From: Chalara sp. BL73
Lineage: Eukaryota; Ascomycota; Leotiomycetes; Helotiales
Length of the DNA stretch: 64,000 nucleotides
Direction: 5' to 3'
NCBI GenBank assembly: GCA_918026815.1
Contig: CAKJVC010000199.1
Span: forward strand, 1 to 64,000
Position numbers and translations under genes: made by a program. This document shows positions 7,672 through 63,528 of the stretch, piece by piece. The first letter of the stretch is position 1, and every line of letters starts with the position of its first letter. Below the pieces are notes generated by a model. The model had not been told where the DNA came from. It saw only the letters and a list, made by a program, of their open reading frames with translations, and searched no databases.

Positions 7672-9781
7672 AGTCTGTGATCGCGGTTTTCCGTAGATTT
7701 TATGAAAGCTAGGTTTACGGATCAATATGAGGTGCAACAAACCGAAAGCATCCCTATATATGTGATATACTCCATCTCAACCACAATAAATCATAGTCTA
7801 TTTCCAGTGGCTCTGCGAATTCGATTCATAGATAGAGCAATAATCCTGCAGTTGCAACATCTTCTGGCGGAAACTCCAATAGATGCATTTTAATATAGGC
7901 TTTGTTGCTCAGTATTGTGGCAGAAATAAGGTGTCATATATAACTTTTCATCATTCCCTCCAAGTGCTTGTTGTGAAGAACCAGCTCTTCGATTATTTAC
8001 ATTCCCTGTCCTCACCCAGCTGTTCTTAGCTCAAAATATCACCGACGAAATGCTCTAACGATCGTAGTCATCATGAATGGTTTGAATCGCTCCCGGTAGA
8101 TGTTCTTTCATCCGGCAAGCTCAGCGGGCACACACATTCACACAGAGAGATGTTATATAAAGACATCGACCTCTTGAAAAGACGGAGTGAGTGTACGTAC
8201 GTTCACGTGATTTTTATATTTTTAAGTTGGACTTGAAAATATTAAAAAAAAAATATCATTTGATTATTTTTTTTTTTGAGACGCGCAACAAAAAAACCGT
8301 GTCGGCCAATTGAACTCCCTGTTCTTTCGCTTGAGCCCCTGAATCGACGCATCTTCTTGGCGATGCTGGGAACCGAGACTCGCTCGGCTTCTTTATATGG
8401 AAAATGTTGGCACTTTTGTATGTAAATGATGTGATGTCAACTTTAGCCCGTATGGGTCTTTAAGTTTTGTTTTGTTTTGTTTTGCGACCAAGGTAATGGT
8501 GGAATATCGCGAACTAGATGTGTGTTTACCTGATGGCGAGCATGGAAACTCGGCTGGTTGATAAGTGGCGGTAGGTTGTTAGCATTGAAACTTTCATGGC
8601 TCCCGATGTTGTGGGTAGCATGAAGATGGTGAGGGATAGGAATGTGCAATTTCTGCTGGGTTATGGGTGGGTAGATTTTGAGACGGTGGGCATTTGCTGC
8701 TGGCTATGAGAAGACGGTGTATTCAGGATCATTGGGTGTAATCTTCCGTATAGCACGTTCAGACTCTAGACTCGGAAAACTCGCCAGTATTTAGCTATTA
8801 ATAAACGTAGCGTGGTTCTGTGGCTTATCTAACATCGGAAGTTCAGGTATCAGGCCTTAGGCAGCTCGCGGTGAGCCGTCCGTGGTGGTTACCAGGTATG
8901 CTCGGTACCTCAGAGTCGATCATGTCGTCTTCGAGCTATATGGTCTTGTAAATACTGAGATAGGAATTAGCCACTGGGCAAAGGCCATCAAGGCAAGAAG
9001 CGCTTGTTGATGAGAGAAAGGTGTGGTGAGAATTGCATCCACGGAGTATTTATGTTTGCCCCGAATCATGGAGTTATCAGCCGAAAAATGAATCATAGGG
9101 TAATTTGACTTAAAAACACGATGCGTCACGGAGATGAAACGAGGGCAGTTCTCTGAGAGGTTGCCTCTGCGAAGCATCACGAGAAATCGGAACTGTAAGG
9201 TACAAGACTTCTTTGCCTCGCAATTATCATAGCGCTTCTTGAATGTCACTTGTCGTAAGTAAGCAAAAACTTTTATTTCATTCACTGTTCGCTCTGCTAT
9301 CTCGTTTGCCTTATTTCAGTGCCCTGGCTATGGTAAGCATATGTTTTATGTTGGAGAGAAAATAAATAGGTATGCAGATACTCAGAGGAGCATCTTATGC
9401 CTCTGCCACGCTAAGTCAGTGAATAGTATGTCTCACTGTCATTTACGGTGCTTCACAAAAGACATTCACATAAATTAGAACCAAAGAGATTGCCCCCATG
9501 TGCTAAACCAGCTGCCAATTATAAGAATACGTCCATTCAGTTTAAGACTTGGTCTGCTGATCAGAGTTATACGCATAAATTCAGCCCACCCCAACTCTGA
9601 ATGGGCCATCATACTATGATACATTTCAAAATAGACCTAATTTAATGGGTACCCGCGCAATTTATTCCTGCAACATACAAGTAACGAAGATTGGTAACGA
9701 GCGGCGTCCTTTGAGAGACGCCAGAAGCCAGTATCTTTACAGCCTCACCTCCAAATCTCACAACTTCGATACTCAGGCACA
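7672..9781. other. Intergenic region
   Basis: No frame here has a recognisable domain. The DNA is AT-rich with A/T homopolymers near 8246-8276 and a TTTTG repeat near 8466-8484. It holds the 3' flank of the membrane-protein gene and the upstream region of the RING gene. Confidence 0.5.
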
Positions 9782-10555
9782 ATGACGGACAATAACACTT
9801 CGATTCAAAACTCAGCTATGCCTTCCACCGGAGATTCCACTACTGGAAACACACCTATCATGGAGCACAGCTCTGCTGCCGTCGTCGAACGAGCCCGTAA
9901 CAGATCTCTACTCTGTACAACACAAACAGGATCTGCAAACAGCGACGGATTAAGCAAAGAGCCTGATTCTACCAAAAATCCTATCAAATGCCCAATCTGC
10001 AAGGAGGAAGCCGAACAGCTCATCGCCATCAAACCTTGCAAGCACGAATATTGCAACGAGTGCATCCACAGCTGGCACCGCCAAACCAGCTGCCGCCCAG
10101 GAGCAGGCAGATCCTCATGTCCACTCTGCAGGAAGACCATCGAGAAGATCGGGGACGAGTCCGTCAATGATTCGCAAAACATACTTGAAGAAGGCCAATT
10201 TGCCGTTTTGCTGGATATCATCTACGATTATGACTCCGGCCCCGACCCCGACCCCGACTCCGATGGCGCTGATCACGGTGCGGATGGGGTTCTTACTAGA
10301 GAGAACTGGGTGTCGAGGGCACCTCTCGGCGAGGTCACTTTCCAGCACACCTTTGTAGTAGACCCTACGGTGGATCTCAATTCTCAATACACGCCTACGC
10401 CGCCAACGTATTCCGATTCGGAAGCTGTGGGTTATATGGAGGTAGATGCAGCTTTTTTGGGAGCTCCTCCCCATCCGAGCGGGCTGGACTTCCACGGGGG
10501 CGAGGCGGATGGCACGGTTCAGGAGGCAGGATTGCCAGCTCCGCGAGCTGATTGA
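9782..10555 (+). CDS. RING-HC finger protein, probable E3 ubiquitin ligase
   Basis: Intronless 257-residue frame starting at an ATG in good context (CACAATGACG). A complete C3HC4 RING lies at about residues 70-116: CPIC, then PCKHEYCNEC (the C-x-H-x2-C-x2-C core), then CPLC. All eight zinc ligands are present. RING-HC domains recruit E2 enzymes for ubiquitin transfer, so E3 activity is the usual inference. The N-terminus is Ser/Thr/Asn-rich and looks disordered. After the RING comes an acidic run of Asp-Pro repeats (PDPDPDSD, around residue 155), encoded by a GACCCC-type DNA repeat. The insertion between the sixth and seventh ligands is longer than in many RINGs (HRQTSCRPGAGRSS). Substrate and pathway cannot be told from sequence. 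Neighbouring genes give no functional hint. Confidence 0.8.
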   Translation: MTDNNTSIQNSAMPSTGDSTTGNTPIMEHSSAAVVERARNRSLLCTTQTGSANSDGLSKEPDSTKNPIKCPICKEEAEQLIAIKPCKHEYCNECIHSWHRQTSCRPGAGRSSCPLCRKTIEKIGDESVNDSQNILEEGQFAVLLDIIYDYDSGPDPDPDSDGADHGADGVLTRENWVSRAPLGEVTFQHTFVVDPTVDLNSQYTPTPPTYSDSEAVGYMEVDAAFLGAPPHPSGLDFHGGEADGTVQEAGLPAPRAD

Positions 10556-11448: not shown

Positions 11449-14400
11449 CTATTTGCTTTCGGACACTAATTCAGGGACTGTCCCCGAATCAACGCCGTTG
11501 CCCTCGAATGCATGCTCTGCGTGTGTTATTCCTTTACTCCAGTAACACTTAAAACAGAAATTGAAATCTTCGCACACTAAACATTTCCAGCGACGTCCGT
11601 AAATTGGCTAGATGATGAAGTTAGGCAGCACGCCCTCAAGCCAGATGTGATGGATGGTTAGATTAGGACTTAAATTTTGCTGGCAACCATCACAAACGTA
11701 TCCGCCAGCCATCTTACCAACTCTCCATTTACCTTTCTTTGACGGTTCCTTTGACCGCGAGATGCCGCCATTTTCAGTTTCATCTGACGTTTTGCCTCCG
11801 GCAAGTTCGTTATCACTGAGCAGAGGTAGTAGATCGGAGGCATTGTGGAAAATCGCAATATTTTCTGGCGTCCATCCATGCTTTGCTTTTTTAGAGGAAT
11901 CTGCTCCTGCTTCGACAAGAAATCTTACCACATTCCCGTTTATATCGCTTCGACATGCCCAGTGCAAAGCGGTCCATCCATCAACGTCTTCTAGGTTGCT
12001 CAATTCTAACCTGCGATCTTGCATTATCATCTCCACCATTTCAAGAGTCCCACCCATTGCTGCATGGTGCAAAACTGTCCTCCCCTGATAATCTTTCAGA
12101 CTAAGATCACCACTCCTAGCCATAAGCCACTCCATATTCTCTACAGATCCACGCCATGCAGAAATATGGACGGCAGTACGCCCCTGCTCGTCTCGAGCGT
12201 TGACGTCGGCACCTTTTTCATACAACATTGGGACTATGGCAAAATCACCAAACCAAATAGCTGCGCTCAGAGCATTGGCGAATAACCCACCACTGATGCT
12301 TGCATCAGCACCATTCTCAAGCAGAAATTCGACGAGGTCATCATAGCCGCTAACAGCGGCAGCCTGAAGGGCTGTGTTGTAAAGCCCTCCCTGTGCATTG
12401 ACATCTGCGCCATATTCCATGACTAGTTGCTTTAAAACGCCTAGCTCGCCGCACCTAGTAGCTATATGAAGTGCAGTTGGAAATGCCCCTCCCCCCGCAT
12501 TGATGTTGAGACGATCGGGAGTCTTCAATAGGGTGGTCCAAGCCGATTCCACTTTGCGACGAATTGAATAGGCGACGGCCTTAGTGACAGCCATGGTGAG
12601 GGCCGTCTCGCCCTTCTTATTGCGTAGTTCTGCGTTAGCTTCGCATCTGAGTAGGCTTTCAATCACAACATCGGCATTCTTTTGGACAGCAAGCAAGAGG
12701 GGTGTGTTCCCGTCTTTGTCTTTGAGGTTTATGCTTAAGTGCGGGCTTCTCTCCAATATGGTGTCTACAAATCTGGACTGACCTTCGAGAATGGCCATGT
12801 GTAGTGCCGTATACCCATGGTCGTCCTGATCAGTAACCACATTAATATCTCTTTCTATTAATTTTAGAGCGATTTGGATATGTCTCCCACGGACTGCATA
12901 GTGTAATGCTGTTTTCTGCGAGTTATCTCGAAGGCTCAAGCTAACATTATGAGAAAGGAGTAGCTCCAAAACCTCACTACAGCCCCGCTCCGCAGATGTC
13001 ATCAGGGTTGTCTTGCCGGATTCGGTCTGCGCGTCAATATCCACTGAGTGTGCAAGGAGCCACCTCACTGAGGCCGGCTTTCCAAATGCAAAGTGTAGCA
13101 AAGTACTGCCACCTTGACTTCTGCGGTTTAGTAAGTCTGGGGCTTCCTCCCAGAGCATCTCCATTACTGGCACATGGCCATACATTGCCGCGACATGCAT
13201 AGGTGTCCAACCATTATCATCTTCAATCAATAACTCAGCGCGCTGGTCGATGAAGAACCGGGCAATATCTTTATTTCCGCCACACACGGCGTGATACAAA
13301 GGAGTCCAGAGGAGTTTGTCCTGCAGTCGTGAACTTGCGTTATGGCGAAAAAGGACCCGCACAATCTTTACATTACCAGACCTCGCTGCATGATGAAGAG
13401 CAGAGCGACGCTCGTGATCGACACCATTTGGATCAACGCCAGCTCTTAGCAGCAATTTAACAGTGTCAGCATGATTGTCTTTGTCGCCCGGTATCTTGGC
13501 TACATGTGAGACCAAGTTGGTCTTATTGATTTGGAATGAATAGTTCGCTTTTCTGGCTAAAAGTGCTTTGACAACCTGTTCTCTGCCTGCGATTGCGGCT
13601 AGAGCAAGAGGAGTGTAGGCTTTATTAGTATTCCGGTCAAGGTCGATCGTCGCTCCATGGTTTACAAGGAGCAAAACAATGGCAAGATGTCCCTCTCTTG
13701 CCGCATAGTGTAGTGCTGTATAACTGACCGCATCCACTGTGTTCAAATCGTGTCTAGATATTCTGGGGATGCACTGCTTGCAAATAGAGAAAAATCCCCT
13801 TTCTGCGGCTAGAATGAGTACAGAGATTATATCCACAATTGCAGTCTCTGTAGGTGATTCCTTTAAAATCATCTCTGCGACTTCCTCATGTCCATTGAAA
13901 GTCGCAGCATACAAGGCGGTGTGTCCTAGAACATCTATTTCCGTACTATCTGTCAATTCCACCTTTGCCCTTTTTTGCATGAGCAATTTTACAGCAGATT
14001 GATGTCCATGGATGCTGGCTAGCTTCAATGGAGTATTACCCAGCGAATCCTGGAGATCTATGCCAGGGTCAAGCTCATCTTGGGTAAGTAGCTTGATGAC
14101 TTCCGCATGGCCATTGAGCGCAGCTAGATGCAATGCCGTGCGGCCCTCGCTATCTTGCGTTAAGATGGGTGGGTGCAACCCCAGCAATAACCCCACAATC
14201 TCGTAATGACCGTACTGAGATGCAAAACGGAGTGCTGTGTGCTTATCATCATTGAACGCACAAACATCCACTACTGAATAGTGCTCAACTGCTGGCGATT
14301 GTAACGCTTCTGATAAGCCATTTGTAGTTCTTGTATTTGGGTCAGCTTTCCAAGATAATAGCTTGAAAACGACTGACTTATGGCCGTTCTTTGATGCTAA

Positions 14401-17400
14401 TTGCAGTGGAGTACATCCCTCATAAGCATAGTTTAGATCAGCCCCAGCTATAAGGAGCTTTGAAACAATTTCGTCATACCCAAGCTCTGCTGCTTGACAC
14501 AATACTGCAGGGTCCCAGACTACGCTCCGAGTCGGGCTAACGAGTTTTGTAAGCAAAAACTCTACAATGTCTTCAAATCCCTGTCTCGAAGCATAGTCGA
14601 GAGCTAGTAACATGCTTTCTGAGAAATCAGCCAGCCCATCATCAACGAGCATCCTCACTACATCCAAATTGCCTGCCCAACTGGCAAATAAAACTGCGAG
14701 AGAGCGGATTTCAAGCGGGATAGAATTTTCAGTCTCTTTTTTGAGGTAAAGTGCGACAATATCTGTAAATCCAAGATAGGCTGCCAAGGAAAATGGGTCC
14801 ACAATGGACAGATTTGGCGGGCCATGTGCAATTCCAAGTGTAGAGCTTAGCCCAAGCCAAATTCGTACCAGATCCCGATGGTGAAGAATGTGATACATAT
14901 CCTTCACATGGTAATCTTGCTTCTCTGCCTGAATGTAATGAGTTGGCCAGAATCTCACTGCGTAATCCATCAACTCGAACACGATGCCTTGGGGTGTCTC
15001 CCAATTGTCTTCCCCAAGCGCTTTCTTCGTTGCAGCAATAATATCATTAGAACAGAGAATCTTAATCAGGATACGCATAATGTCCCAATGGGACATAATC
15101 GGAGCCTGTTGTTGTCTTCCAGCCTGGGACTGCCTCGCTTTCTCTGTGCCCAAATTCAGCTCCTCGTCTTTGGCAAGTTCCTGAAAGCACTGTCTTACTT
15201 GCTCATGACCGAAGCTAACCTCGTTGTTCTCAGCTCTGAGGGTTACACCAAAAGCTGATTCCAAGTCCGTTGGTAAGTCAAGCAAGAGTTCATTTTTGTT
15301 AACCTCGATCGACTCCTCGCCTTCGCTAAGGGCAATCGCAACAGCCAGTTCCTTTATTTTCATAGGTCTTTGTGCATTGAGAACCCAACCAAGAACCTTT
15401 CTTGCCCATTTTGGCAGCGCTTGAAAAACTTCGAAAACGAGGTCTGACACCTCATAAGGGAGCTTATGAAGCTCTAATTCGATAGAGTTACCATTTGATG
15501 GGAGCGCATGGTAGCGTTTCGTGAAAATATCAAAGTTCATTGACAATTGAAGAAAGCTTCCACACCTTTTTAGTGCATCATCCAGGTTTTGTCGAAACTC
15601 TAGGAGATGGGGTCTCTCTTCAACCAACTTCGCAATTACCGAAGTTCGGTAGGGCATGAGAGACTCTGGAGAACATACTAGGCCATTGAGATGGACTGTG
15701 GGTATCAGATTCAGAGCGGTTTTGATATCCTGTCTCTCTTTACCAATGAGAATTATCTTGAACCTGGTGAGTATATCTTTGCTGGCTATGAGAGTTGACA
15801 GATCTCTGAGAAGCTTAACACGAGACGTGTCACAGTTATGTATCTCGCTGATGACGCAATACAATGTCCTCGACCCCAGAGTTGTTATGAGCAATTGAAA
15901 CAAGGTCCATACCGCGTTTGAGTCCAACTGGAGTGTTTATTGATAGCAAGGAAAAGACAATGAACTTGTCGAAACCTTAGCGAATCCTGGATCAAGAGCT
16001 GGTAGGCCAGCGAGCTCAAAATTGATTTCCGTGTGGTTTGCCGCTTATCCTCCAAGCTAAAGGAATAATAAGTGGTATAATCTCCTTTGGGCCTCTGGTG
16101 CTGAATTGATCCAAACAAAGTGCCCGAGAGTACACTCTTGCCCGCTCCTTGATCATCATAGAGGTATGCAATTGATGAGCTGTCTGCCTTCAACCATGTT
16201 CTGATCTCTCGGTGTTTCTGAAAATGATCCAAATCTTGGTTCACTTCTACCGGGATAGAGAACGATGGTGCGAGTGTTCCCAAGACTGAAAGACATTTGG
16301 TATAAGCCTGATGCGCATCTACGTCCACAATTAGGAGTCGTGTCACATTTGTGAAGTGAAGAGAAAACAATTACCTCTTTGGAGAGACTTCAAGATCACA
16401 GTGAGTTCCGAGTCCGTCTTCGAGAGTCTGCCAAGGTCTTCATGGGTTGCTTTTCGACCGACGTTAGTTTCATAGATAGAACCAGTGGTGGCGGAGTGAT
16501 AATTAACAATCTATCCGCCCATTAGTCACTTATGCTCGTAATTGCGTATGGAGAATTGAATAATTATAGCGAGAGTTGCTTACGACATTTTCACTTTCGT
16601 CGTGGGAGTCATGCTCTTGTTGATATATGTTCACAACACTTTCCCTGGTGATTATCGACTTGAATTCCATTGAAGCTTGAGCTAAAGCCCTGGAGAAAGC
16701 TTTTACTCTGCTGGGCAATTGGTGGGCGCGAAATGTTGAGGGAGAAGTGGCAAATATGATTTTAAATACTTGATCTTCCCATGACTCAACATCTGTAGCG
16801 CGGTGAGGAGTCCCAAAAAATACCTATTCAGCAAGGTCAGACAGAGCCTTGTAATCAAAAGGATAGCGGGTAGTCTGACGGACCAACTGTTGAGTATTCT
16901 TAGCAATAGATGAGAAATTTCTTTCTCCAGAAGCAATAATAAGTGCCTAAATTTATGTGTTAGCAGTAAACTTATCAAAACTCAGGAATACCCTGCCTCT
17001 TTGATGATGGCGCCCCCGAGATCATGCGATATAAACGTAAGGGTTCGGTTCTTGGACTAGTGAATATTAGCCTAGCTCGATACCGTGGTAGTTCTTTTTC
17101 ACTTACCACATACTGCCTTTCGCTCTTCAGCGAAGTAAGCAGAGCCTCTGCAGTCTGCTTTAGACCATTTGCGGATAAAAAAGGATTCTTTTCAGTGCTG
17201 CTACACTCATAGTGGAATAGCATAACCCGTGAATTTGGCACATATGGGGGAAGCAGGTTTTCGAGCCAGGTCGACTCAGTTTGCCCGGATGTCCGTGCCC
17301 TCTATGACATATGTGGATGGCCATTCAAGCCATTCACAATAATGAAGCTGTCCGTGGAAGTGAGTTGGTCAGAATCCTAAGCCTGTTTGAATTTTGGAAG

Positions 17401-17484
17401 AACCACTTACTCGACTCCTTCCCCAAGCATAGAACCCGACTCTCCGCCTAGGAGCGACAAGCCTGTGAAGGTAGACTTTTCCAT
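11449..17484 (-). pseudogene. NLR-type gene: hydrolase-like domain, NACHT, ~28 ankyrin repeats, ZZ finger; damaged
   Basis: I rebuild eight exons: 17484-17411, 17347-17107, 17056-16997, 16946-16884, 16823-16584, 16510-16375, 16318-11674 and 11607-11449, about 1,870 residues. All splice phases fit except where damaged. The ATG at 17484 sits in a strong CACCATGG context. Order: alpha/beta-hydrolase-like domain (NGLNGHP, FISHDLGG, VFFGTPHRA); P-loop-like QGAGKSVLS; weak Walker B region (YCVISEIHNCD); about 28 ankyrin-like repeats (TALH/TPL...GH pattern); C-terminal ZZ finger (CDGC, KCLVC, FCFKC, HAEH). Fungal NLRs of this build are linked to self/non-self recognition and heterokaryon incompatibility (family knowledge, not shown here). 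Damage: in-frame TAG at 17304-17302, a one-base frameshift near 15930 and a TT instead of GT donor at 11673-11672. The 4.3-kb ankyrin frame is still open, so decay looks recent. Head-to-head neighbour of the S8 gene. A truncated product remains possible. Confidence 0.8.
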
Positions 17485-17979
17485 GGTGATCGTGAAAGTG
17501 CAGGAAAATTTGGCATCGGAGCAGAAAGACACAGTATTTGGTGCTTCGCGCCGGGAGGTTCAGCTGGTTGTGGAACAGTCACCACAGTCTGGCTGGAATA
17601 GGCCCCACCTCAGCTAATCAGCATGAGTTATCATGCAGCCGCCCTTGGATGTTATTTATCGTACAGAGTGACATTGATCTGCACCGAAAATATTGTGAGC
17701 CATACATCCTACATCCACGAGTTGTACCGAAATACATTATGTCCGTTTTGAGAGCCATTCAGGTCGCTCGGGTAAGGCAGGCAGCCATATCATGATTACC
17801 TTGTCCTCCACCGAGTAGATTACGAGTGGTTTGATATCATTGAGGTCATATTTTAACAATTGTGTCCCACTTTACGTAACCTAGATACACATCTCCCAAC
17901 CTCAATTCGCGTTCAACCTGGACCGACAACTCAAAGTTTCATAGTTACTCGACAAGCCATCGAAACAAAATTCACAGTA
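17485..17979. promoter_or_regulatory. Divergent promoter shared by the NLR and S8-protease genes
   Basis: The start codons at 17484 (minus strand) and 17980 (plus strand) face away from each other and are separated by 495 bases with no coding frame I can support. A shared bidirectional promoter is inferred from this geometry alone. I did not identify a convincing operator. Confidence 0.55.
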
Positions 17980-20900
17980 ATGGCAGGGGGCTTGTCTGCT
18001 GAAAATGCCCTCAGATCGCTGTATACCAAACCAAGCCATGAAGAACGAGATGCTTGACTAGCTAAACTAGGTTATATAGATAGAAAAGGACAACAGCAAC
18101 CAACTCCGAAGATTAAAGCAGTTATCACAGAGTTGCACATCCGAATTGCATGCCAATTCAACACGGCGGTCGAAACCTTCGAAAGCGATGCGCAGGTGTT
18201 TGATGGACTCATGCGCGAAGTGCACTACATGGAGCATTTGCTAGCTAAGGGTTACGAGAACAAAACGATACTGCATCGAGTTCTCGATTCTGCGACGTAC
18301 GAATCCCAAGAAACCACATCCCATGGGCTAGTGCTCGACAGAATCAAGCCCCTGGTGCGCTTCCTCTTGAAGATATGCCCAGATCTGCCAGCGGTTGAAG
18401 ATATAGAAAAAAAAACACCTCTATATTTGGTAGTGGCGCTACCGTGGAAAGTTTCTGTGAAAGAAGAAGAGGATTTTGAGGTGGAGAATAGACCGTACGG
18501 CAATGGTGGCACAAAGCAAGAGACAGGCCGGGAAAATGGGGATTCTGTGCCCAATATTGCGACGAGACCAGAAAATGAAGAGCAACAGGAGAATTTTTCG
18601 AGAGAAATCATGGCGAAGCAAGATTTTATCAGGTATCTCTGCGGAGACAAGAAGAATGGCTGCTTGGGATCAGCTGCAGCAATCGACTCGCTGAGGGCAA
18701 CAACAGACAGCAATGGCAAGAGCCAAACCACAAATAGCCATGCGCTGCACAAGGCTATTGAGAGTGATGTTGAAATTGACGAAGAGGTCGTTAAGGAAGT
18801 CGGAGATATCAATAACATTCCTACAGATGCTGAAGCTCAGCAATTCAAGTCATGCTTGGATTTGTGGGACGATAGCGGCATGACATGCCTGCACCTTGCC
18901 TTGACATGGCCCTTTACACCAGCCAAGTGCAGGTGGGCAAAGATGCTTGTGGGGCTGAAGCCGGACCTTCTGAAAATTGTGACAGAAAAGGACAATGAAG
19001 ATTCAGATGTTTTAACTCCACTCCAACATTTTGTTGAGGAAAGGAAGAAAATAAATACGGCTGGACTAGCGGGCCAGGTTACTGAATCTAAGGCAGAGGA
19101 ATTGAATGTAATCAGTCAGACAGCACCTATAGATGGTGTTAAAACGGAGCCTACGGTGTCTTGTCAAGTAACATTGAGTAATACTTTACCTCAGAGCAAA
19201 GATGGAGAGTCAGATTTGGAGAGTTTAGACCTTGAAAAGGAGTTGGAAGACTGGCTAAAGCTGCGCTGCTTGGTCCATTTCGACAATGCAACCGCAAGGA
19301 GCATTATGTATACTCGTGGTCAGAGTCAGTTACCTGTTTCATTTTAATATTACAGTCCGTCAATGATTAATATCGAGATAGTGCGTGAGACTTATCTCGG
19401 CTTCGAATCTGGAGACATAGTTTCTGGAGACTATTTGATGGAGATGAGAAGACATTACAAATTGGACACCATACTTCGGTGCGTTTTCGTTCCCCTTATC
19501 AGCGTGAAGTGGGACGACAGCAGCCTTACCGCACAAAAGACGGCAGAGAGCTGGAAATGCGTGGGTAAAACAGATTTATACATGATATTCGACTGGCTTA
19601 AAAGGAAGGCTAAAGTGAAGAAGGTGGTTGAGATAGTGGTTGAGGATTTCGAAGGAGAAGACAGGAAGTCTCACAGCGAACAAGCTATCGTGGAGTGTCT
19701 TCGAGATCTCAAAGTTGAAACTTGGAACTGGAAGAGGAGGGACATCTCTAGTGACTTGATCTATAACGTGGCAAGTGAACATGTCAAGGTTGTCTATCTG
19801 TATTGCAGCGGCAACAAAGCTGTACTACGAAGCTGGTCAGATAGAAACGGGCTTGCCAGACTGGTGAATGTAGGTCCCCTTCTTCGGCTTTACTTCCTGT
19901 TCGGCTGACCTCTCAAAGTTAGAGCAAGTGCATCTCGAAACAAACCAAGTAACCTCCCCTGCTTTGTTTCCTTGGGGATATTACTGAAGCTTATGAATGA
20001 CAGGGACTAGAATCATTTGAAACAATGTCTGCGGCTGTCCGAGTATTCAACACGGAGCTCAATAAGTCATTTCTCGCTGTCCATCAGAGAGAAGTCTTAG
20101 TACATTCCCAGGTTATTCAAACCGCGGATAAGGTGCTAGCCGAAGAAACCCAGATTTCAAAGGTGAAGGAAGAGGGGGAAGATGGGTATGAAGAGTAAGA
20201 ACCCAACTTTGTCGCGATTACTTACGAACGATTCACGGAATCTTTCGCTTACGATCTCACAGACAAGACTGGCTGAAGTGTATGGATAAGTTCGCCGATT
20301 TAGTCGAGGAACTGCGCTTTTCTGAAGAATCTATTCCCAACGATCAAGGCCAAATAAAGGCTGCTAAGGAATCTGTCGCTAAAAGTGTGGTAAATCACCC
20401 GCTCTCCATGTCCCAACCATACCAAGTCAAGATAGCGATCATCGACGATGGTGTCAAGTCAAGCGTCGATGGGCTTAACGACTTCATTGAACGTGGTGAG
20501 TCCTGGGTCAAACAATCCAACCCGAAGTACCGCTATTCTGCATATACCACTTCTACAACGGGCCATGGTACAGTTATGGCATACTACATTCGTCGAGTGT
20601 GTCCAAGTGCAAGACTGTACGTTGCAAAGCTCGATCCACAGATGGTTCAAGGCCGGATCACTTTCACGATCGAATCTGCTACCAAGGTGGGTGCTCTTGT
20701 CATTTGTCGTTTGTCGAATGTTCCGCTGCGCTCTATGGGCAGGGAAAGGAAGCTGCTATATTGTCTGCCGGGTCCTGAAATTGACAATTTGGGCAGGCAA
20801 TTGAATGGGCAGTAGCAGAGAGCGTCGACATCATCTCCATGAGCTGGGCCATAGAGGAGAAGAAGACCGAAGGAGCAGAGCCGCAAGAAGTTGTAGCTCT

Positions 20901-21466
20901 ACGTAAAGCAATAGGAAGAGCGAACGAAAAGAACATCCTCCTCTTCTGCGCGCACCCAGACAAAGGCCCAGGCGAGCAAAATAATACGTATCCAAAAAAA
21001 AATAGACACATCACGCGTATTTTGCATCGGTGCTGCAAATAGAGATGGCAATCCTTGGGGCCAAATCGGAGAGAATTCTTCGTCTGACTTCTACCTTCCA
21101 GGGGTGGATCTCGGGATTAAAGCAGAGACAAAAGACATCCAAAGGAAGAACCACCCACCGGAGAAATGGAAAAAGTATAGCGGTAGTTCGCTCTCATGTG
21201 CGCTGGCAGTTGGACTGGCAGCTCAGATCCTATTTTGTGCACAACTCGTCGAGCACACCAAATGGCGCTACCTTAAGACACACACAGGCATGAAGCAGGC
21301 TTTTGAGCGTATAAACATGACAAATAACAAATGGCTTCCAGTCCGAACCGTTTTTGGAGACCCAGCTCTCACTAAGGCAACAGGAGACGAAAGAAAGAGG
21401 ACGCTTCGGGTGGTAGTTGTGGACAGATTACTTGCCAACATGGACACACAAACGAAGCTGTCCTAG
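17980..21466 (+). pseudogene. Ankyrin-like / subtilisin (S8) protease gene; damaged
   Basis: Six exons fit in phase: 17980-19307, 19356-19869, 19919-19948, 20004-20194, 20263-20686 and 20797-21466, giving about 1,050 residues. The N-terminal part has weak ankyrin-like segments (KTILHRVL, KTPLYLVV, HALHKAIE, MTCLHLAL). The C-terminal part is a subtilisin fold with all three catalytic motifs: Asp in AIIDDGV, His in GHGTVMA and Ser in SGSSLSCALA. It has no signal peptide, so it would act inside the cell. Fungal S8 domains joined to ankyrin or NLR modules are known as putative death effectors; that role is inferred. Two breaks occur: an in-frame TGA at 18055-18057 (25 codons after the ATG), and a run of nine A at 20994-21002 that shifts the frame by one between the His and Ser motifs. 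A 54-nt intron (20989-21042) could formally bypass the second break, but it would remove the conserved-looking CIGAANRDG strand. Head-to-head with the NLR. Confidence 0.75.
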
Positions 21467-22190: not shown

Positions 22191-23113
22191 ATGAGGGAAA
22201 CCGATACTCAATTTAAAGTGGTGCTTGAGGATGAGGTAGACGGCGACGCAGAACTCAAATTTGACATCCAGGGAGCCAACTATGCTGGGGTAGAGCAGCA
22301 AGAATCCCAAATCGATTACGGCATTGGCGACTCCCATGTAGTCTTAGCAGATATGATTCAGGTATATCACGGCACGCTGGTGGAGGGAGGATCACCAACA
22401 ACTCTCATTGTGATGAAATTCGAATTCCAGGTCTCGGGGAACTATAAACGATTCAAAAACATCGAGGCTAAAATGACCTTCTTGAAGGGAGCCAATTCAA
22501 TCACCAGCCCGGAGGTAGTTGATATTACCGCTAAAGGGCGTGGTCGATTCTTCGGTCCAAGATACCGGAAGAGACAACCCATACAGTCAGCCCCAGTGTC
22601 GAAGGAGGAGGAGGGCCTGTCAAAGCTACAGCTGCATACACATGGCAGTTCAAGAAGACTGTAGACAAAGAAAGCAGCGCTCGAATTATCGGTACCATCA
22701 GAGCACTGGGGATGGACCGCTCAAAGAAGAATACGGCTATTTGGACATTGCTCGAGAATCCAGATACCAGCAGTGGAATTCCAACACTGTTACAAACCGC
22801 CGTTTTACTGAAACGAGAGAGGACAGATGATAACCCCAAAGGAGAGAAGTTTAAGGCGAATTTGGAGATCCATGGTGAGGCGGACAAGGTTTCATCGTGG
22901 AAGGAGTGGTGGAAACAAATGGCTGCCACAGTGAGAGGGAAAGCCCAAAAGGGGGAGGGAGTGATATTCAATCCCGAGATAAACAGGGGTATCGTTGATA
23001 ATCCGGATAATCTCAAGTACGAAAGGCTGGAAAAGTTCGGAAGGATAGTTACTTTGCAGGAGTGGAAAGACGGTGACGCTCTGGAAGAGGTTGGCCACGG
23101 GGATGTAGAGTGA
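22191..23113 (+). CDS. Unrecognised protein in two reading frames (frameshift or short intron)
   Basis: I do not recognise a named domain. The first frame starts at the ATG at 22191 and reads hydrophilic, beta-strand-like sequence (DAELKFDIQGANYAG, LIVMKFEFQVSG). The second frame is already sensible from about 22563 (EETTHTVSPSVEG), continues through KNTAIWTLLENP and GIPTLLQTAVLLKR, and stops at 23111-23113. Together they give about 290-307 residues, soluble and without signal peptide or membrane segment. Joining needs either a one-base indel near 22540-22565 or a 47-nt intron at 22516-22562 (GTAGTT...CCAAG), which fits in phase but has a weak branch site and would remove the segment VVDITAKGR. 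I lean slightly to a frameshift because the two adjacent genes are also broken. It follows the S8 gene on the same strand, 0.7 kb away; a functional link is only a guess. Confidence 0.5.
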
Positions 23114-31284: not shown

Positions 31285-32877
31285 CTTGCTGGTTGGTGGC
31301 CGTGGCTAGTTGGGACGCGAGACAACTTTCGCCGTACCCCCTACTCCAAACGTTTTGTGTTGTGTGATGTGGGTCGATTGCTGGGGGGGAAGCACTCGAA
31401 GGATGTTATGAGGAGAGGAATGCCATGAATCTAGTAAAGCAAAAGTAAAGGAGCGTGAAGAAGGAGGAAGTAGGGACAGAAAGTAGGAAATTGAGGCTTG
31501 TAAGGTTAGGATGGATTTCTCGTTGGAGATTCAGATTCGTACCCCTTTCCTAGAATACCCCGACACCCGCTCTGGTCCCCTTCTCATTCGTTCCGCTAAG
31601 GCTAAGGCTGATGATCCATGACGGGGACCAATTTAGTGGAGCGGCACAGCGAATGAGCACTGGAAGGGTATTAATATAAAAAGATGCACAGCCTCGGGAC
31701 AGCCCACAGGACAGGGCAGGGCAGGGCAAAAGAAAGCCTGTAACTTCTCGCTTCAATGTAGAGATGACCCAAAGCAGGTTTAGAAGGGGGGGCTAGGCAT
31801 TGTCTAATGGGTTACAGGCTGGCAGGAGACACAAGTAGGCCTCCGACCTATCACCGCCGTGAAGGAAAACAACTGGGGGAGGGGAATGTACCTACAGAAG
31901 CACAACCCTGAATTTTGATTCTCAACGCTACGGTAAGCCTCTGGGCCTCAGCTCTCAGCCACCTATGGGATGATGAGCAAAAACGTGTACCTTGGTAGGT
32001 AACGTGACACAAATATGCATCGTCCCCTTTCTCAGCTTTGGGTAATTTCTTAAGGAGAGAGGTATTTTTTCCGTTCGCCTCAACCTTTGACGTTTGGGCA
32101 TGGTATGGTATGGTGTGATGGGTAGATATACCTGACATGACTAAGGGATTAGTAGGAGTAGTAGTAGTAGTAGTAGTAGCGCAGTCATGTCACGTCAAGA
32201 GTCAAGCATGAAGGCGGACATGCTTGAATCACGCAAACAACCACACGGCCTGGGCAAACCAACGCTGTTTTAAATAAGCTGACTGCAAACAGAAGGGGAG
32301 ATGCTGCTGCTTTTGGACCGAACCTATCGCTGCTCTACCTTCGTACAGCAGCCATTCTTGGTTCTTGGCTCCAGGGTTGCGATAACGCGATAAGCTACTT
32401 CCCCTCACTGCTTCCGCCAACTTACTCGCTCACTTTCTTACTCACTCACCCACCCACCTATCTGGCTTTGGAGGAGCATCTGCCATCTGGCGTCCGCATC
32501 TCCATCATCACCATCATCACTTATCACCCACCCACCACCGAATGCAGCCCAGCCCAGCCCAAGCCCAGCCAATTCTTCCCCCCGCATCCGCGTGATGATG
32601 TCGAGATGTAGAGTTACACTTCCGCCTTCTGTCTTTGTACCTGCCCTGACCTTATCGGGCTAATCCCTCCCCGCCATTCTCTCTCTTTTCTTCCCTCCTC
32701 CTCCTTCTTCTTCTTCCCTTCTGTTTTTTCTAGTACAGTAGCCCTAGCTTTAGAAAATATAAATCTTATCTACCATTATATATATTCTTTCACTCGCAGC
32801 AGCGACAAGCTGTTGGCTACGGATCTCTTGGAGCTACGCTGATAGCTTCGGGAAGCTACCCCGCCCGCCGCTCTGTC
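31285..32877. promoter_or_regulatory. Divergent intergenic region between glycosyltransferase and phosphatase-like genes
   Basis: About 1.6 kb without a supportable gene. It must contain the promoters of both flanking genes. Notable content: a GTA trinucleotide run at 32157-32179 and long pyrimidine-rich tracts (32430-32740) just upstream of the plus-strand gene, as often seen in filamentous fungal promoters and leaders. Confidence 0.5.
32157..32179. repeat. (GTA)n microsatellite
   Basis: At least seven consecutive GTA units are read directly in the divergent promoter region. Confidence 0.85.
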
Positions 32878-34702
32878 ATGGCCGCCAGCTATCTGATCCG
32901 CTACGCAGCTTCACTGCTTATGCTCTCCTCGACCGTCGTTGCTCAGTCCAATGACCAGATCACTTGGGGAACCTTTATTTTCACGTATCACGGAGAGAGA
33001 CGGCCCGTTATTGCTAACAATGGCGAGAATCTTACCCCCTTAGGTGCGCAACAACTGCTATCTGCAGGAAGGGATTTCCGCAATCTCTACATCAACCCCC
33101 CAGTAAATGGATCGCAGATCACAACCACCGCGCCCATCAATGGCATGAACATCAATCCCATTGACAACTCTCAGATTTTGATTCTGAGCACTCCATGGGA
33201 TTATGTGACTGCAAGCACACAGGCATTTATGCAAGGCCTCTATCCGCCGAGGGATGCTCTCATTGTCGATGAAGAGAGCATGTTGAGCAATGCGTCGCTG
33301 GTGCAATACCCCTTAGATGGCTACCAGTACCCTCAAATTCTAGCTGTGACGCCGCTTGACTACAATTACATCTCGTAGGTCTCCAATGCCCGTATCTGCG
33401 CATCTTCAGCGCAGTCAAAACAAACGGCTTCTAACGCTTCTTCACAGACTTTCTGGCAGCAGAGACTGTTCCGCGTACTCTCAGGCGTTTCAACAAATCA
33501 TCAACTCTGACATGTACGCAGCGGAAGCGGCAAGGACACAGAATTTCTATGATCGGCTGGCCACTTCTGTCTTCGCAGATCTAGCTTCGACATCTGTGAC
33601 TTTCTACAACGCCTACCAACTTTATGACTATGCCTTGTACCAGTACAACCATAATGCGACTATATTCCGAAGTTTGAGCGCAGGAGATCTCACGCAGCTT
33701 CACAGTCTTGCCTCGCAACAACAGTTCCTGCTCAACACGCCAAATTGGTTAGGGACTATTTCCGCAATCTCAGGGGCAACTTTGGCGGCCAGGGTCGTAG
33801 ATGAACTTGCAGCCGTCATCGATACAAGGGGGCAGTATCAAAAAATGTCCCTATTGTTCGGATCTTTCCAACCTTTCCTCGCTTTCTTCGCACTGTCAAA
33901 TCTCAGCAATGGTCCTGCGGCCTCGCGCTTTAGCTATCTACCAAGGCACGGCTCCAGCATGGTTTTCGAGCTGTTCTCATCCAAATCCGATCAAAATAGT
34001 ACCTTTCCTTCAACAGAGGACCTCTGGGTACGTTTCCAGTTCAGGAATGGCTCAAGTGACACAGACCCTTTGATCGCATACCCACTGTTCGGACGACCAA
34101 ACTCCGAGACGGATATGACATGGCGAGATTTTGTGGATGGCATGGGAACATTTTCGATGACCAATTTGTCGTCATGGTGTAATGTATGCCAGGGCGTGAC
34201 TCTATACTGTCAAGCCCTTCGCAGCGCCCAAGCAAGTAGCGGGTCTACCTCTAATTCTGGCTCCGGCTCCAAGAAAGGAGGAATCTCCCCTGCGGTAGCT
34301 GGTGTTATCGGAGCTGCAGTCACAATCGCAGTTTTCATCCTCGCAGGCGCTATTCTAGCCATCCTGGGATGCAGACTCGGCAAGAGAGATAAAACAGACG
34401 GAAGCGGCATTGGGGTATTGCGACGAACCGGAAGCGGTGGTGGCTTCAAAGGTGCCGAGAAGCTCGCTAGCGACACAGACCTCCGCTTGAAAGCAGCCGC
34501 CACCGCAGGAGCTGCTCCAGTCAAGAAGGAGCGGGTCGGAAGCTGGGAGTTGAATGAGAGCCCAACAGGCGCCAAACATGCAAGTCTTGATAAAGAGCTT
34601 GAGAGCGGGAGGAGCACTGCCCATTATGGACGTCCCAGCGAGGATGGGCTTGGTGATGCCAATCCATTCAGCGATCCGGTACAGCCCCGCGAATCTGTCT
34701 AA
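32878..34702 (+). CDS. Histidine-phosphatase-like (branch 2) membrane protein with altered active site
   Basis: Two exons, 32878-33374 and 33448-34702, with a textbook intron (GTAGGT, CTAAC branch, CACAG) give 583 residues. An N-terminal signal peptide (about residues 1-22, ending VVAQ) is followed by a long extracellular region. It starts with TYHGERRPV, which aligns with the RHGxRxP catalytic motif of histidine acid phosphatases, then LTPLGAQQLL. A later segment, LPRHGSSMVFELF, matches the place of the second catalytic His. Several N-x-S/T sites and Cys pairs suit a secreted domain. A single transmembrane helix (encoded near 34285-34370) is followed by a Gly/Ser-rich cytoplasmic tail of about 115 residues. 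The first catalytic Arg is Tyr, so classical phosphatase activity is doubtful; a receptor-like or pseudo-enzyme role is possible. Divergent from the glycosyltransferase. Confidence 0.75.
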
Positions 34703-58653: not shown

Positions 58654-60613
58654 ATGGACGTGGATATGCTCACAACGCTGCCGAATGAGGTGCTCCATCA
58701 CATCTTCAAAGATGTGGACATCGTGGACATTGCGAGGTATGTGACACTTTGCTTTTGGGTATACTCTAAATTGGAATAAGAGTGTAGCCAAGTGATTCTG
58801 GATCTTGCATTACAGGAACATGCTGTAGGAGTTGTGATGTACAAGTACAGTTTGCATTAAGCCTCCCTTCCTTCATGCTGCTCCTCTTCCTTCGAAATAG
58901 TAACTCTCACTTATGCATTTATAGGCTAACCCAAACATGTCGAAAACTTCACGCGTTCACAATACACAATGTAGCCCTTTTCAGAGATATGTTCCTCCAG
59001 AGACTTGTAGGTGTCCATTTTCCCGTCAATGAGCAATTACTAATCATAGAACAGGATGGCTCAATCTTTGACACTCGAAACTGGGAAGAAGAACTTCATT
59101 TACTCGTGAAAATGGAAAGGATTCTAGCTTACAAGACCCATGTAGAGAAGGTCTCCTGCCTTCCACAGCTTACCGAAATGGTTGATCATTTCCTTAAAAT
59201 CGCTGCTATAGACAATCCATCTAAGACACGCATACATCTCGCGGAGATATTTGCCTCCGCAGAAGATAAAATTGCGTTCTTGCTTCAATCTGAGATCTAC
59301 CGACGGTTGCGGGCCGATACTGAGCATAGGCGCGATCCAGAACATACGCCCCATCCAAGGTCTTTAAGGTCGGAATCTGGCGAAAAGTTTAGGCAGCGTC
59401 AGGCTTCTGCAAAACTGCATGTCCTTTATGGTGGCCCATCAGCTGACCCAGAGTATACGTGGAGCTCTCAGGATAAAGCATATGAGTATGCTTGCTCAGT
59501 CGTATATGATCTGAGGAATTATACTTTGGGTCCATTCTTGCCAAATGGGAAGGCGACGGCGGATTGGGAGAAGATTGAGGCTATTTTGAGTGAGTGAGAC
59601 TTTCGAGCTTTTTCGGACCAGTACTAAAGCTTCTATTCCTTTGTTCTGGGTCCTGCCTAAGCTGTTTTGCTTGTAGCATAACTAACACCCCGTTTTACAG
59701 TTGTGATCAACTATAATATTAGAGCATATCTGGACGATGACCATCGCCCTTATATAGAGAAGCTGTGGAGAACGGCTTTTGAGGGCGTAACACCCGGTAG
59801 TTTCAAATCTATCCCTCAAGGTCTGTCAGAGCCTCAGAAACCCCAACCATTGGACCACGCAGATCCCTATAATATCACCGGCACATATATCAGAGTACGT
59901 TCGCACCATCCCTACATGAATCTCTCTAAGAAACTAACACGGCGTCAGATAATCTGCTTCTTAGGTAAACCATTTCCTACCCTCCTCACAATTCTTCACC
60001 AAACTAACACCTCAGATTTCCACGAACTCCACCACTATAACTTCACCTCCCAATCCTCTCAAACTGTCTCCAACAATGAACCCCGCCCTCCTCTTGCCAC
60101 TCAAGAAGCGATCCGCATCCTACGCATGGAGCTCAAAGTAACAGCAATCAAGTATCCTGGCGATGAAGGCTATCGCGGCGCCGGTTCCGCACCCGCGGTC
60201 TATTTTGAGGGCGTGAGCGGCAGCGCGAGCAGACATGATATGGAAGGTGGGCACTCAAGGACAAGGGGCTGTGTCAGGATGAACGAGGAGGGTGAGCTCA
60301 GATGGACGACATTTAGTGTTTACTGGGGGGAAGAGAGATGGAAGAGTGAGGGGATTCAGGTCGGGGGCGTGAATAGTGGAAGGGGTGTTTTCGGAAGTTG
60401 GTTTGATAAGTAAGTTCTCTACCTCAATCTCCTAATGCCTGACGTAGCTGTTATTGAATGTGGGAGTTCAAGGAACTAATAATAAGTAGACATCACAGCC
60501 GTGAAGGCCCAGCGGGGCCATCAGTATTCTGGAAGATTAGCGACGAGATCAATCCGAAGAGCAAGGCCCTATTTCCAGGCGATGGGAGCGATGACAGCGA
60601 GGACGATGACTAG
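58654..60613 (+). CDS. F-box protein
   Basis: Six exons fit in phase: 58654-58736, 58925-59589, 59701-59894, 59949-59964, 60016-60409 and 60490-60613, giving 491 residues. Exon four is only 16 nt. The F-box is at the N-terminus, about residues 6-45: TTLPNEVLHHIFKDVDIVDI, split by intron 1, then LTQTCRKLH. F-boxes bind Skp1 in SCF ubiquitin ligases and the rest of the protein picks the substrate. The C-terminal half contains GTYIRIICFLDFHELHHYNF, formed only after removal of the two small introns, and GPAGPSVFWK near the end, followed by an acidic tail (DDSEDDD). The 54-nt intron is a multiple of three and leaves the frame open, so unspliced reading would wrongly insert 18 residues. Substrate unknown. 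No damage seen. Confidence 0.8.
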
Positions 60614-63117
60614 TATGCTCTTCCAATCCATTCCCTCTCTAAGTCAAGAACCATTCTCACATAGCGACAGTATTCCTATTCTCTTTGCCTAAGGCAATCT
60701 GCAACATAACTAAGTGGACAAGATCAGTAATTAAGCTTATTAAATGCGATTTTAAATTATGAACTGGCTCCAGTTTTGAATATCTTTTTTTGCTTCACGT
60801 GTTGTACAGAAGTTGAGGACTTTGAGCTGTGACGCTCCTTCATAAACATTGTACCCACTATCAAATAAGCCTATCTAACTATCCCGATGTCCAGTATATT
60901 CTTTTATGCATTGGTGGACGAGGCGGGGTTCAGGGCAGAATAGATACGGGAAAGGCAAGCCCAGAGATGGGACATATCGTTCATTTGAGATATCGAACAG
61001 TTAATAATTTGAGGCTGATGTACAGTACATTGAAAGTGAAAAGAAAATTTTTACATCACCCTGCTCTTAAAATGCTGTGACCAGCAGCATAATATGATTT
61101 GGGGTTGGGGGGAGGGGCGGGGAGAAGACCAAGTTCAATGAGCAAGCTGTATTGGGAAGGAGGCGCTGACTTACTCTGACCTCTGTTGTGCTTTCACCAA
61201 TCTGCTTTGGGCGCTTGCTTGGGCGTGTCTTCACACACCTAATTGTGGTGTGTCATGCGCGTCATTTGTCTGAACTCAACTAACCAATTTCGGGTCAGAG
61301 AGATCTGCTGCTGTATTTTTCCTACTTAGGGTTCATTGTATCTGCGGCCTCCATGGAGGATTAAAACTGGATTAAATATTCAAAACCTATCACCATTTAT
61401 AGCTGCACTTAAGAACGCCCAAAGAGACTTATAATTAGAATAATTTCAATATATCTAGGGCATGTATCTCGGACCAAGCTGTCTAAATGTTTGAAACATC
61501 GCAACAGGAAGGACGAGCAAATGGGCAAGAAGGCCAAATTTATAAGGAATATTGCTAATATTATGTGATTAGATAGGTCGAATGATGTCTTGGTTAAATA
61601 GTCTACTAACAATGTTGATATCCTAAAATAAAGGTAGTATATATGCCGGATACTGGGAGAGGAACCTGTAGTGAGCATATTCAGTACAGAGTTACAGCAT
61701 ACGGCCACAACTTCATCACTACCATGTCATATTATTGCTGGAGTATGAATTCCGTGCTTGACTTCATAATTTTCTGACAACGTTGCAAACAAGGAGTGTG
61801 ATTGAAGCAAGAATGATAGTTAGGCTCAAGTGGGCTTGGTAGCGGAACGTGCCGTCCCGAGTAGATTCTAAAAAGCTAGCCAGACGCGAAGATTCTATAT
61901 TCTCTCTGCAGGGTAGTCGTTCTCCCCCTGTTTGGCATTTGTTATACATTTAAGAGGTTGGAAGCGTAGCGATAATGGGGTATGTCTAATTTCTGCCAGT
62001 TTCTTTTTTTAGTTTTTTTTGGAATTGGCAAACAGCGCCTCCAGGATATTCGAACAATCGCTAAACCGTACCCTCAGTCTTCTAATTTCATAAATTGAGC
62101 ACAAGGAATTAGAAAATAGGAATTGAGTGTAGCTTGCGGGTGGCTCAAGGTTTAATGGACTGGACTTACTTGAAATTGGAACCCGCTATAAGGACGTCCC
62201 AGTTTAGACACTCGAAGTAAAATATAGTACTCACGATAACTAAGGCATCAGGAATATTCGAAGTTGTGGAGCTACAAATTTTGCCACTTGTACCTAACTC
62301 ATCTAGTTATAAAATGCTTTGGATAACTTGCAATGAGAATGAGTGCATTTTGCAACACTCATCCGCTGGTTATATTGAGTGGACGTTGAACCCACTCCCG
62401 CGCCTCATGATCAAGCTATATTACTGACGGTCATGTAAGCTCATCAATGCGGACATACGAAAGCGGCTTGAATACATGGGTAGATCTATACAGAGCCAAA
62501 AAAAAACAGTCTTTTACATATGAATATAACTCTCGATAGTTTCGACCCTGAAATATTTAGATGAGCAATACAGGAGAATATCCTTGAGTCATAACGATAT
62601 AAGAACTCGTTGTACAGATGCTCTACGCGATGTCATCCTTGGATAATTCTTGGCGTGTCTGACATCACCAACTTAAAGGGCACCTTTGCACTTTGCAAAG
62701 AACCAAGGATCGACATTTCGGCAAGCGAAATGCGACATGCCGCGTGGAAGTTTGACCTTCCCACATGCTATTGAGGTTACTCATGCCAATCGCATACCGG
62801 CCATTTCTCTCCTTGTGATAAACATGCTGAATTTACCCAAGTATTAGAAACCAAAGTCTTACTTTCTTTGTAGTGTTTTATAAGTAGAGACGTTATGAAG
62901 CAGGAACTTCCAAGCCAGAATTCGCGATCCTGCCTCTGTTACAGGCTCAAGTGAACAAAGTGACTGTGAGATTTCTATAAAGTCTGCTGCAAAGTCTGCT
63001 ATAAAGTCTGCTTTGCTTCTGCAACATTTCGAGCAATCTCAATTTCCAAGGATATACTCAACAAGCAAGAAATTCACAAACACTCAAATTATTCGATTTC
63101 AATAAGCAGAAATAGAC
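60614..63117. other. AT-rich intergenic region
   Basis: No supportable coding frame over 2.5 kb. The last part is the upstream region of the HSP9/12-like gene and carries a threefold repeat at 62976-63013. Confidence 0.5.
62976..63013. repeat. Three AAAGTCTGCT units upstream of the HSP9/12-like gene
   Basis: AAAGTCTGCT occurs three times at 12-13 nt spacing, about 105-140 nt before the ATG at 63118. That position fits a cis-regulatory cluster or part of the 5' leader. Confidence 0.6.
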
Positions 63118-63528
63118 ATGCCTGACGATTTGTAAGCTTCCGCGGTTCTGAACTTTTCATTTCCAACTAAGAGAACACAGGCGCGAAGGATTAGGCGATC
63201 AGGTTGGCGAGAAAGTCACTCCTCAGTCTCAAAAGTCCTACAATCAGGTTGCTAGCGAGAAAACCTTCGACATCGCTGATAAACTGGCTTCTACTACCCA
63301 GCCTTGTAAGCTCCATTCATTCACTTGATATGACGTCGTATGTGTTGACCTGTCTCAGCGGATTCCAAGTTAACGACCCAGATGTTTGGTGACAGCACTC
63401 GCACCAGTGCCGACGATGCTCAAGGGACATATCTTGACTCAGCAAAGGAAATAACAAGTGGTGTTGGACAGACCGTACAAGACGCGCTCGATGCCGCTAA
63501 GGATTCCACCAAGGACAAGAGGCTTTAG
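63118..63528 (+). CDS. HSP9/HSP12-family small stress protein
   Basis: Three exons, 63118-63131, 63181-63305 and 63359-63528, with short consensus introns (49 and 53 nt) give 102 residues. The individual reading frames are too short to stand out without splicing. The N-terminus (MPDDLREGLGDQVGEKVTPQ, continuing SQKSYNQ) matches the start of the HSP9/HSP12/WH11 family, followed by a hydrophilic, Lys/Asp/Ser/Gln-rich helical region without Cys or Trp. Yeast Hsp12 is a membrane-associated, stress-induced, otherwise disordered protein; a similar stabilising role is inferred. The first intron directly after the fifth codon is a common layout in filamentous fungi. A threefold upstream repeat may be regulatory. 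Confidence 0.85.

Follow-up and report, generated by a model that had tools for sequence, protein, structure and literature searches.

In fungi, some 80 percent of the gasdermin genes lie in clusters with genes for proteases, mostly of the S8 (subtilisin) type and often with ANK, TPR or WD40 repeats. Some of these proteases form part of an NLR, and HET-Q1 becomes active once its C-terminus has been removed by HET-Q2 (PMC10197012, PMC12881547, PMC10989679). The DNA analysed here, a stretch of 64,000 nucleotides from Chalara sp. BL73 (the window), contains three neighbouring genes that recall this arrangement: an NLR gene on the minus strand, an S8 protease gene on the plus strand and, also on the plus strand, a third gene whose product is called HFP (hemolysin-fold protein) below. 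As for HET-Q1/HET-Q2, of which NLR forms exist, the S8 gene is found beside a gene for a small candidate pore former (about 280 amino acids in the known system), but the predicted fold of HFP is that of leukocidins and hemolysins, not of gasdermins, and the NLR is encoded separately, by a third gene. The repeats occur in paralogues and relatives of the S8 protein, not in the window copy. The locus is probably, if far from certainly, a copy of a three-gene module for regulated cell death in fungi, which consists of an NLR, an S8 protease and a hemolysin-fold pore former. What the data show directly is that the three genes exist and recur side by side, and that the fold predicted for the third protein has a conserved, stem-like hairpin.

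HFP resembles the bacterial leukocidin/alpha-hemolysin superfamily (which includes the proteolytically activated pro-forms of Vibrio cytolysin) in its predicted fold and its amphipathic, stem-like hairpin. It differs in having neither detectable sequence similarity to that superfamily nor an obvious signal peptide, and in being a fungal protein encoded beside a protease and an NLR. P450139 from Coprinopsis cinerea is also a fungal protein with a resemblance to leukocidins, which is remote and covers 75 residues by HHpred, and it is nematotoxic (PMC6434838). However, it comes from a basidiomycete, it has no homologues according to the authors, and no link to a protease or an NLR is described in the part of that report considered here. 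NLR and pore-forming executioner genes also lie side by side in the NWD2/HET-S clusters, but there HET-S has a HeLo domain and works by amyloid templating, whereas here a protease is in the cluster. Unlike in the paired NLRs of plants, the partner of the head-to-head NLR is an S8 protease, and neither Pfam nor a NACHT profile detects NACHT in the S8 open reading frames (ORFs). In the open-licence papers of PubMed Central that were searched, no executioner of leukocidin or hemolysin type was found in fungi in association with an NLR or an S8 protease. Provisionally, a protease-controlled pore former associated with an NLR is known, and the predicted hemolysin-type fold of the executioner in that role is new.

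The third gene matches no Pfam family, and HFP and its relatives give no meaningful match in sequence searches of Pfam, NCBIfam or the PDB. The fold search was run on the AlphaFold models of two intact HFP relatives, which are 31 percent identical. For both models, every significant row shown is a pore former of the leukocidin/alpha-hemolysin type, and no gasdermin is present among the rows shown. The fold cores superpose at 3.0-3.5 Å across 145-167 residues, and the models of the relatives contain a long, conserved, amphipathic hairpin which looks like a pore stem. The HFP relatives are thus predicted, from these models, to have a leukocidin/alpha-hemolysin fold with a long stem hairpin. A gasdermin identity for HFP is not supported by the rows shown, although this is a weak exclusion, an unlisted family being possible.

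Related genes are found elsewhere in the genome, which has 58.66 Mb in 199 contigs and spliced genes. The window lies on contig C176, and the other loci of this genome are designated by the letter C and the number of their contig, three of them (C10a, C10b and C10c) being on C10. There are seven HFP loci, three on C10 and one each on C112, C9, C88 and in the window; the C88 member came to light when profiles were compared (hhalign probability 96.4, E 1.2e-9, 204 columns). The S8 proteases that have the same middle domain and S8 domain are seven as well (three on C10, the others on C112, C54, C88 and in the window). S8 and HFP occur together at six loci, a few kilobases apart judging from the extents of the ORFs (Table 1), and the probability that six of seven lie within 6 kb is near 6e-17 under uniform placement.

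According to Pfam, an NLR is present within 10 kb at five of these six S8/HFP loci, with NPHP3_N and ankyrins in the window and at C10a, C10b and C10c, and with NACHT and WD40 at C88. The chance of finding five in six is roughly 2e-6 to 2.5e-4, depending on the assumed number of NLRs, and this figure is optimistic because NLRs cluster. The control is small: of the 21 S8 places elsewhere in the genome, it covers four (C54, C77, C84 and C34), which lack HFP. On all ORFs of at least 50 amino acids, a NACHT profile derived from eight further NLRs of this genome matches C88, C84, the window and C10c, and overlooks C10a and C10b. When Pfam matches in chosen larger ORFs are added, an NLR is seen at five of the six S8/HFP loci versus one of the four controls (C84), the scanned ORFs of at least 110 amino acids being 10 of 29 at C77, 5 of 22 at C54 and 5 of 37 at C34. 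Another control, in which one of the 21 other S8 places had a listed NLR within 10 kb, was discarded because the lists, which were partly hand-typed, also fail to show the NLRs of the six S8/HFP loci.

The association is also seen in other fungi. A profile search with five rows of the HFP family returned 49 proteins, 14 of which have a serial-looking locus tag; the C10c S8 protease, used as the query for S8 proteins, gave 230 matches, 120 of which were listed. Assuming that tags are numbered serially, 7 of the 14 HFPs have an S8 protease at a neighbouring tag among the matches listed (Table 1), in species that span Leotiomycetes, Sordariomycetes and Orbiliomycetes. For the others (DL770_001281, MAJ_08552, NOR_07964, H0G86_002475, PFICI_10122, SBRCBS47491_007091 and TWF730_006806), no S8 protease is found at a neighbouring tag among these 120 of 230 matches. 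In Xylaria flabelliformis, S8, HFP and NLR have the consecutive tags FHL15_005611, FHL15_005612 and FHL15_005613, with HFP in the middle, and the NLR is an NPHP3_N-ankyrin-SPRY protein. In Monosporascus sp. 5C6A, the NLR DL771_008871 is two tag numbers away from the S8 protease DL771_008869, on a contig of equal length. For Mollisia scopiformis, Metarhizium rileyi, Viridothelium virens, Hypomontagnella submonticulosa and Trichoderma simmonsii, the S8 and HFP matches lie on contigs of equal length, which suggests that they share a contig, but these five species were left uncounted because the contigs are long.

The first-pass annotation of the window had described a head-to-head pair of NLR and S8 genes, and had proposed that they form a receptor and effector unit with a shared promoter, which would be refuted if the homologues were scattered and never adjacent. 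Both genes exist in this orientation, with matches to NPHP3_N, Ank_2 and Peptidase_S8, and their homologues are neighbours at five of the six S8/HFP loci and in X. flabelliformis (FHL15_005611 and FHL15_005613). The two-gene unit was nevertheless dropped, since HFP, which had been overlooked, is the better-conserved partner of S8. The divergent arrangement is seen in the window only; HFP lies between S8 and NLR at C10a, C10b, C10c, C88 and in Xylaria, and the window is the one locus seen with S8 in the middle. The gap between the two first ATGs, 17485-17979, is a candidate shared promoter. As to the roles, HFP is the likelier effector and S8 is better read as its activator.

In the mechanism that we propose, the NLR (hydrolase-like, NACHT and ankyrin regions) and the S8 protease, which would be intracellular and is of a type that usually bears ankyrins, would serve as sensor and activator. 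Upon its release, the protease would cut HFP, a presumably cytosolic protein of about 290 amino acids, probably near the C-terminal tail of HFP; the freed HFP would oligomerise, and its long amphipathic hairpin would insert to make a beta-barrel pore, which would kill the cell in a pyroptosis-like manner on the occasion of allorecognition or defence. The roles of sensor, activator and pore former are assigned in this way because the cluster repeats the gasdermin-protease plan with another predicted executioner. The wider proposal, that ascomycetes own a second, gasdermin-independent, pyroptosis-like pathway in which a cytosolic hemolysin-fold executioner obeys an NLR together with an S8 protease of the ankyrin type, is plausible, its chances being slightly short of even. 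If true, sensors and proteases would work in a modular way, since the same type of protease, and NLRs, would be combined with a further pore former of different structure; the abundance of S8 and NLR genes in fungi would be easier to understand, and a fold that serves bacteria as a weapon would be a native effector in eukaryotic immunity. With this reading, a protein family without a Pfam name acquires a function that can be tested.

Two other S8 loci (C84:438540-446124 and C77:280506-282541) have small partners of another family, of 287 and 302 amino acids, which are 26 percent identical (E 7e-15 for the pair). The C84 protein, the one that was compared with HFP, was rejected as a relative of it (hhalign probability 0.3 percent). 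C84 also has a NACHT gene, and C77 has DUF7580 and HET-domain genes. It is possible that these small proteins are this genome's gasdermins, and the S8 proteases may control at least two kinds of executioners, since C84 and C77 have another partner family.

Several observations weigh against the three-gene module. The superfamily rows have low query-normalised TM-scores (0.24-0.35) and a large whole-length rmsd, the tip of the hairpin and the tail have low confidence in the models, and both models derive from one family alignment. HFP has no recognisable leukocidin sequence profile: there is no leukocidin family match at E<=1 when 33 members of the HFP family are searched against Pfam and 41 against NCBIfam, and a profile search of the PDB gave no leukocidin-type match at E<=10. 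The linkage has exceptions, C54 being an S8 gene without HFP and C9 an HFP gene without S8, and C112 (60513-68640) has a HET-domain gene (PF06985, E 4.7e-17) instead of an NLR. The NACHT profile alone sees an NLR at three of the six S8/HFP loci versus one of the four other S8 loci, and an NLR match is found at the next tag for just one of the seven S8/HFP pairs abroad (NLR search, 11 matches). In the window itself, the S8 and HFP frames are interrupted in the assembly.

S8 and HFP might be the true unit, made of two genes, and the NLR a mere frequent bystander in a genome rich in NLRs (at least 152 NPHP3_N matches, of 308 candidates). The S8/HFP pair is better conserved than the trio abroad, and C112 carries it without an NLR. 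However, NLRs are more frequent near S8/HFP loci than near the other S8 loci when the profile and Pfam are combined, the trio is found at three consecutive tags in X. flabelliformis, and missed NLRs are expected abroad: the search detects a relative only when exact words are shared, and the absence of matches at six pairs is accordingly weak evidence either way. We consider the bystander explanation rather unlikely. HFP could also be a defensive toxin against predators (nematodes, amoebae) which S8 merely matures, in the manner of P450139, the sole published fungal leukocidin-like protein that turned up, which is nematode-induced as well as nematotoxic; the two may well not belong to one family, the authors reporting no homologues of P450139 in nr or MycoCosm (PMC6434838). 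HFP is instead tied to a repeat-bearing, NLR-linked type of protease which resembles controllers of self-killing, and the N-terminus is, by a crude hydropathy scan, not strongly hydrophobic in 40 of 41 HFP relatives, as expected of cytosolic executioners. We consider a toxin distinctly unlikely.

If the fold search were misleading, HFP could be a divergent gasdermin in an ordinary cluster of the HET-Q1/HET-Q2 type, whose size class (278 amino acids for HET-Q1), partner type (S8, often with ankyrins) and regulation logic are alike (PMC10989679, PMC10197012). This is very improbable considering that both models, whose sequences are 31 percent identical, give the leukocidin/hemolysin type in all significant rows shown, and that the partner family of C84 and C77 is a likelier place for gasdermins. 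Finally, chance neighbours, or a decayed relic that has no function in the sequenced strain, would fit the in-frame TGA and the frame change in S8, the frame change in HFP, and the single apparent in-frame stops of the C10b HFP and of the C10c S8 and NLR. The window copy may be decayed or mis-sequenced and may no longer work. Sequence error may contribute to the interruptions, because a phosphatase-like gene of the window also seems broken (an intron is possible there). The linkage is found repeatedly within this genome and in other species too, intact relatives exist, and decay of this copy says nothing against the system elsewhere; the likelihood of chance or of a relic is close to negligible.

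The window NLR has the NACHT domain and the C-terminal repeats of a fungal NLR (STAND NTPase). Its NACHT exon is also matched by the NACHT profile (E 3.5e-7). Hydrolase-like motifs (FISHDLGG and FFGTPHR) were seen by eye in the exons at 16400-17484; no hydrolase domain was matched by Pfam in the single window NLR exon searched, and the C10c paralogue has a DUF676 match below the cut-off (E 0.0093). The Cys-rich tail was judged ZZ-like by eye and has no Pfam match. The frame seems open except for short introns, which were read by eye in both the NLR and the S8 genes. Several relatives of the NLR have a SPRY domain (P0171, P0172, P0174, P0177 and P0178), and P0177 also has HeLo; Pfam shows neither in the window NLR exon scanned.

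The S8 domain of the window protease has the Asp, His and Ser motifs, with a frame interrupted before the Ser motif. Peptidase_S8 matches it in two pieces (E 2e-4 and 7e-3), each below the curated cut-off, and the gene read through as a single stretch is above it (E 3e-6). The frame shifts near a run of nine A at about 20994-21002, where no fitting intron is seen. The middle domain is common to the window S8 and to those of C10a, C10b, C10c, C54, C112 and C88, and it is present in 118 of the 120 relatives listed. The gene had been called ankyrin-like/subtilisin: the second term holds, but the N-terminal region has no Pfam match, and ankyrins are found in the paralogues (above a cut-off at C10a and C10b, weakly at C10c) and in many relatives. 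This region of 429 amino acids has no other match in its own genome and one match among 180 collected proteins. The 495 bases given as the distance between the start codons do separate the first ATGs, but they are insecure as the distance between the true starts because the TGA at 18055 implies a putative intron or a later start, the next in-frame Met being at 18211.

The two overlapping frames of the third gene match consecutive parts of full-length relatives, most of which have about 280-295 amino acids: the first piece mostly ends at residues 106-119 of the relatives, and the longest alignments of the second start at residues 101-110. They therefore belong to a single gene, about 300 codons long, whose frame changes near 22540. 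Some relatives have long, low-complexity C-terminal extensions, as judged by eye (P0043, L041:3980-5317 and L021:1231-2229).

Table 1. Features of the NLR, S8 and HFP genes in the window, S8/HFP loci elsewhere in the genome and tag-adjacent S8/HFP pairs of other fungi (E values of window genes are from Pfam searches).
Feature	Position or locus tags	Strand	Remarks
NLR gene	11449-17484	-	alpha/beta-hydrolase-like N-terminus, NACHT (NPHP3_N), ankyrin repeats, Cys-rich tail
Cys-rich, ZZ-like tail	11449-11602	-	by eye
Long open ankyrin exon	11608-15936	-	21 Ank stretches, Ank_2 E 5.8e-143
NACHT/NPHP3_N exon	15885-16370	-	P-loop-like DDQGAGKS; NPHP3_N E 3.6e-13
S8 (subtilisin-type) protease gene	17980-21466	+	Pfam Peptidase_S8, translation
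In-frame TGA	18055-18057	+	codon 26 from first ATG of S8 gene, or within putative intron
S8 gene, N-terminal region	18058-19347	+	translation
S8 gene, middle domain	19348-19869	+	common to paralogues and relatives
Likely S8 introns	~19870-20003, 20195-20262, 20687-20796	+	by eye
S8 domain, first part	20263-20686	+	Asp (IIDDG) and His (GHGT) motifs
S8 domain, second part	20797-21466	+	Ser motif (SGSSLS)
HFP, third gene	22191-23113	+	just downstream of S8; two frames meeting at ~22533-22545
C10a	S8 13397-16823; HFP 17055-18131		
C10b	HFP 96682-97689; S8 98239-102104		
C10c	S8 218691-222342; HFP 223012-223914		
C112	S8 60513-63373; HFP 63552-64388		
C88	S8 305952 to ~309775; HFP 310479-311831		
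HFP/S8 tags	VE03_01563/01564		Pseudogymnoascus
HFP/S8 tags	FHL15_005612/005611		Xylaria flabelliformis
HFP/S8 tags	QQX98_010312/010311		Neonectria punicea
HFP/S8 tags	CDV31_002053/002054		Fusarium ambrosium
HFP/S8 tags	EAE99_008574/008575		Botrytis elliptica
HFP/S8 tags	SLS63_013161/013160		Diaporthe eres
HFP/S8 tags	TWF718_003069/003068		Orbilia javanica

Three diverged copies of the trio are found within about 216 kb of contig C10 (13397-229270), and a HET-domain gene is also present near C10b. The lone S8 gene of C54 (68213-73458) is adjoined by a retroelement that encodes reverse transcriptase, RNase H and integrase, and the partner gene of this S8 may have been lost in connection with it. 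The HFP gene of C9 (1854336-1859608) is flanked on both sides by DUF7580 genes, possibly another type of controller.

In the rest of the window, the gene at 32734-34702, which resembles a histidine acid phosphatase, has an in-frame stop at about 33376, and another frame carries on by about 33490 (read by eye); an intron, a sequence error or decay are possible causes. A RING-finger gene (9698-10555; zf-C3HC4, E 1.8e-8) adjoins the 3' end of the NLR gene.

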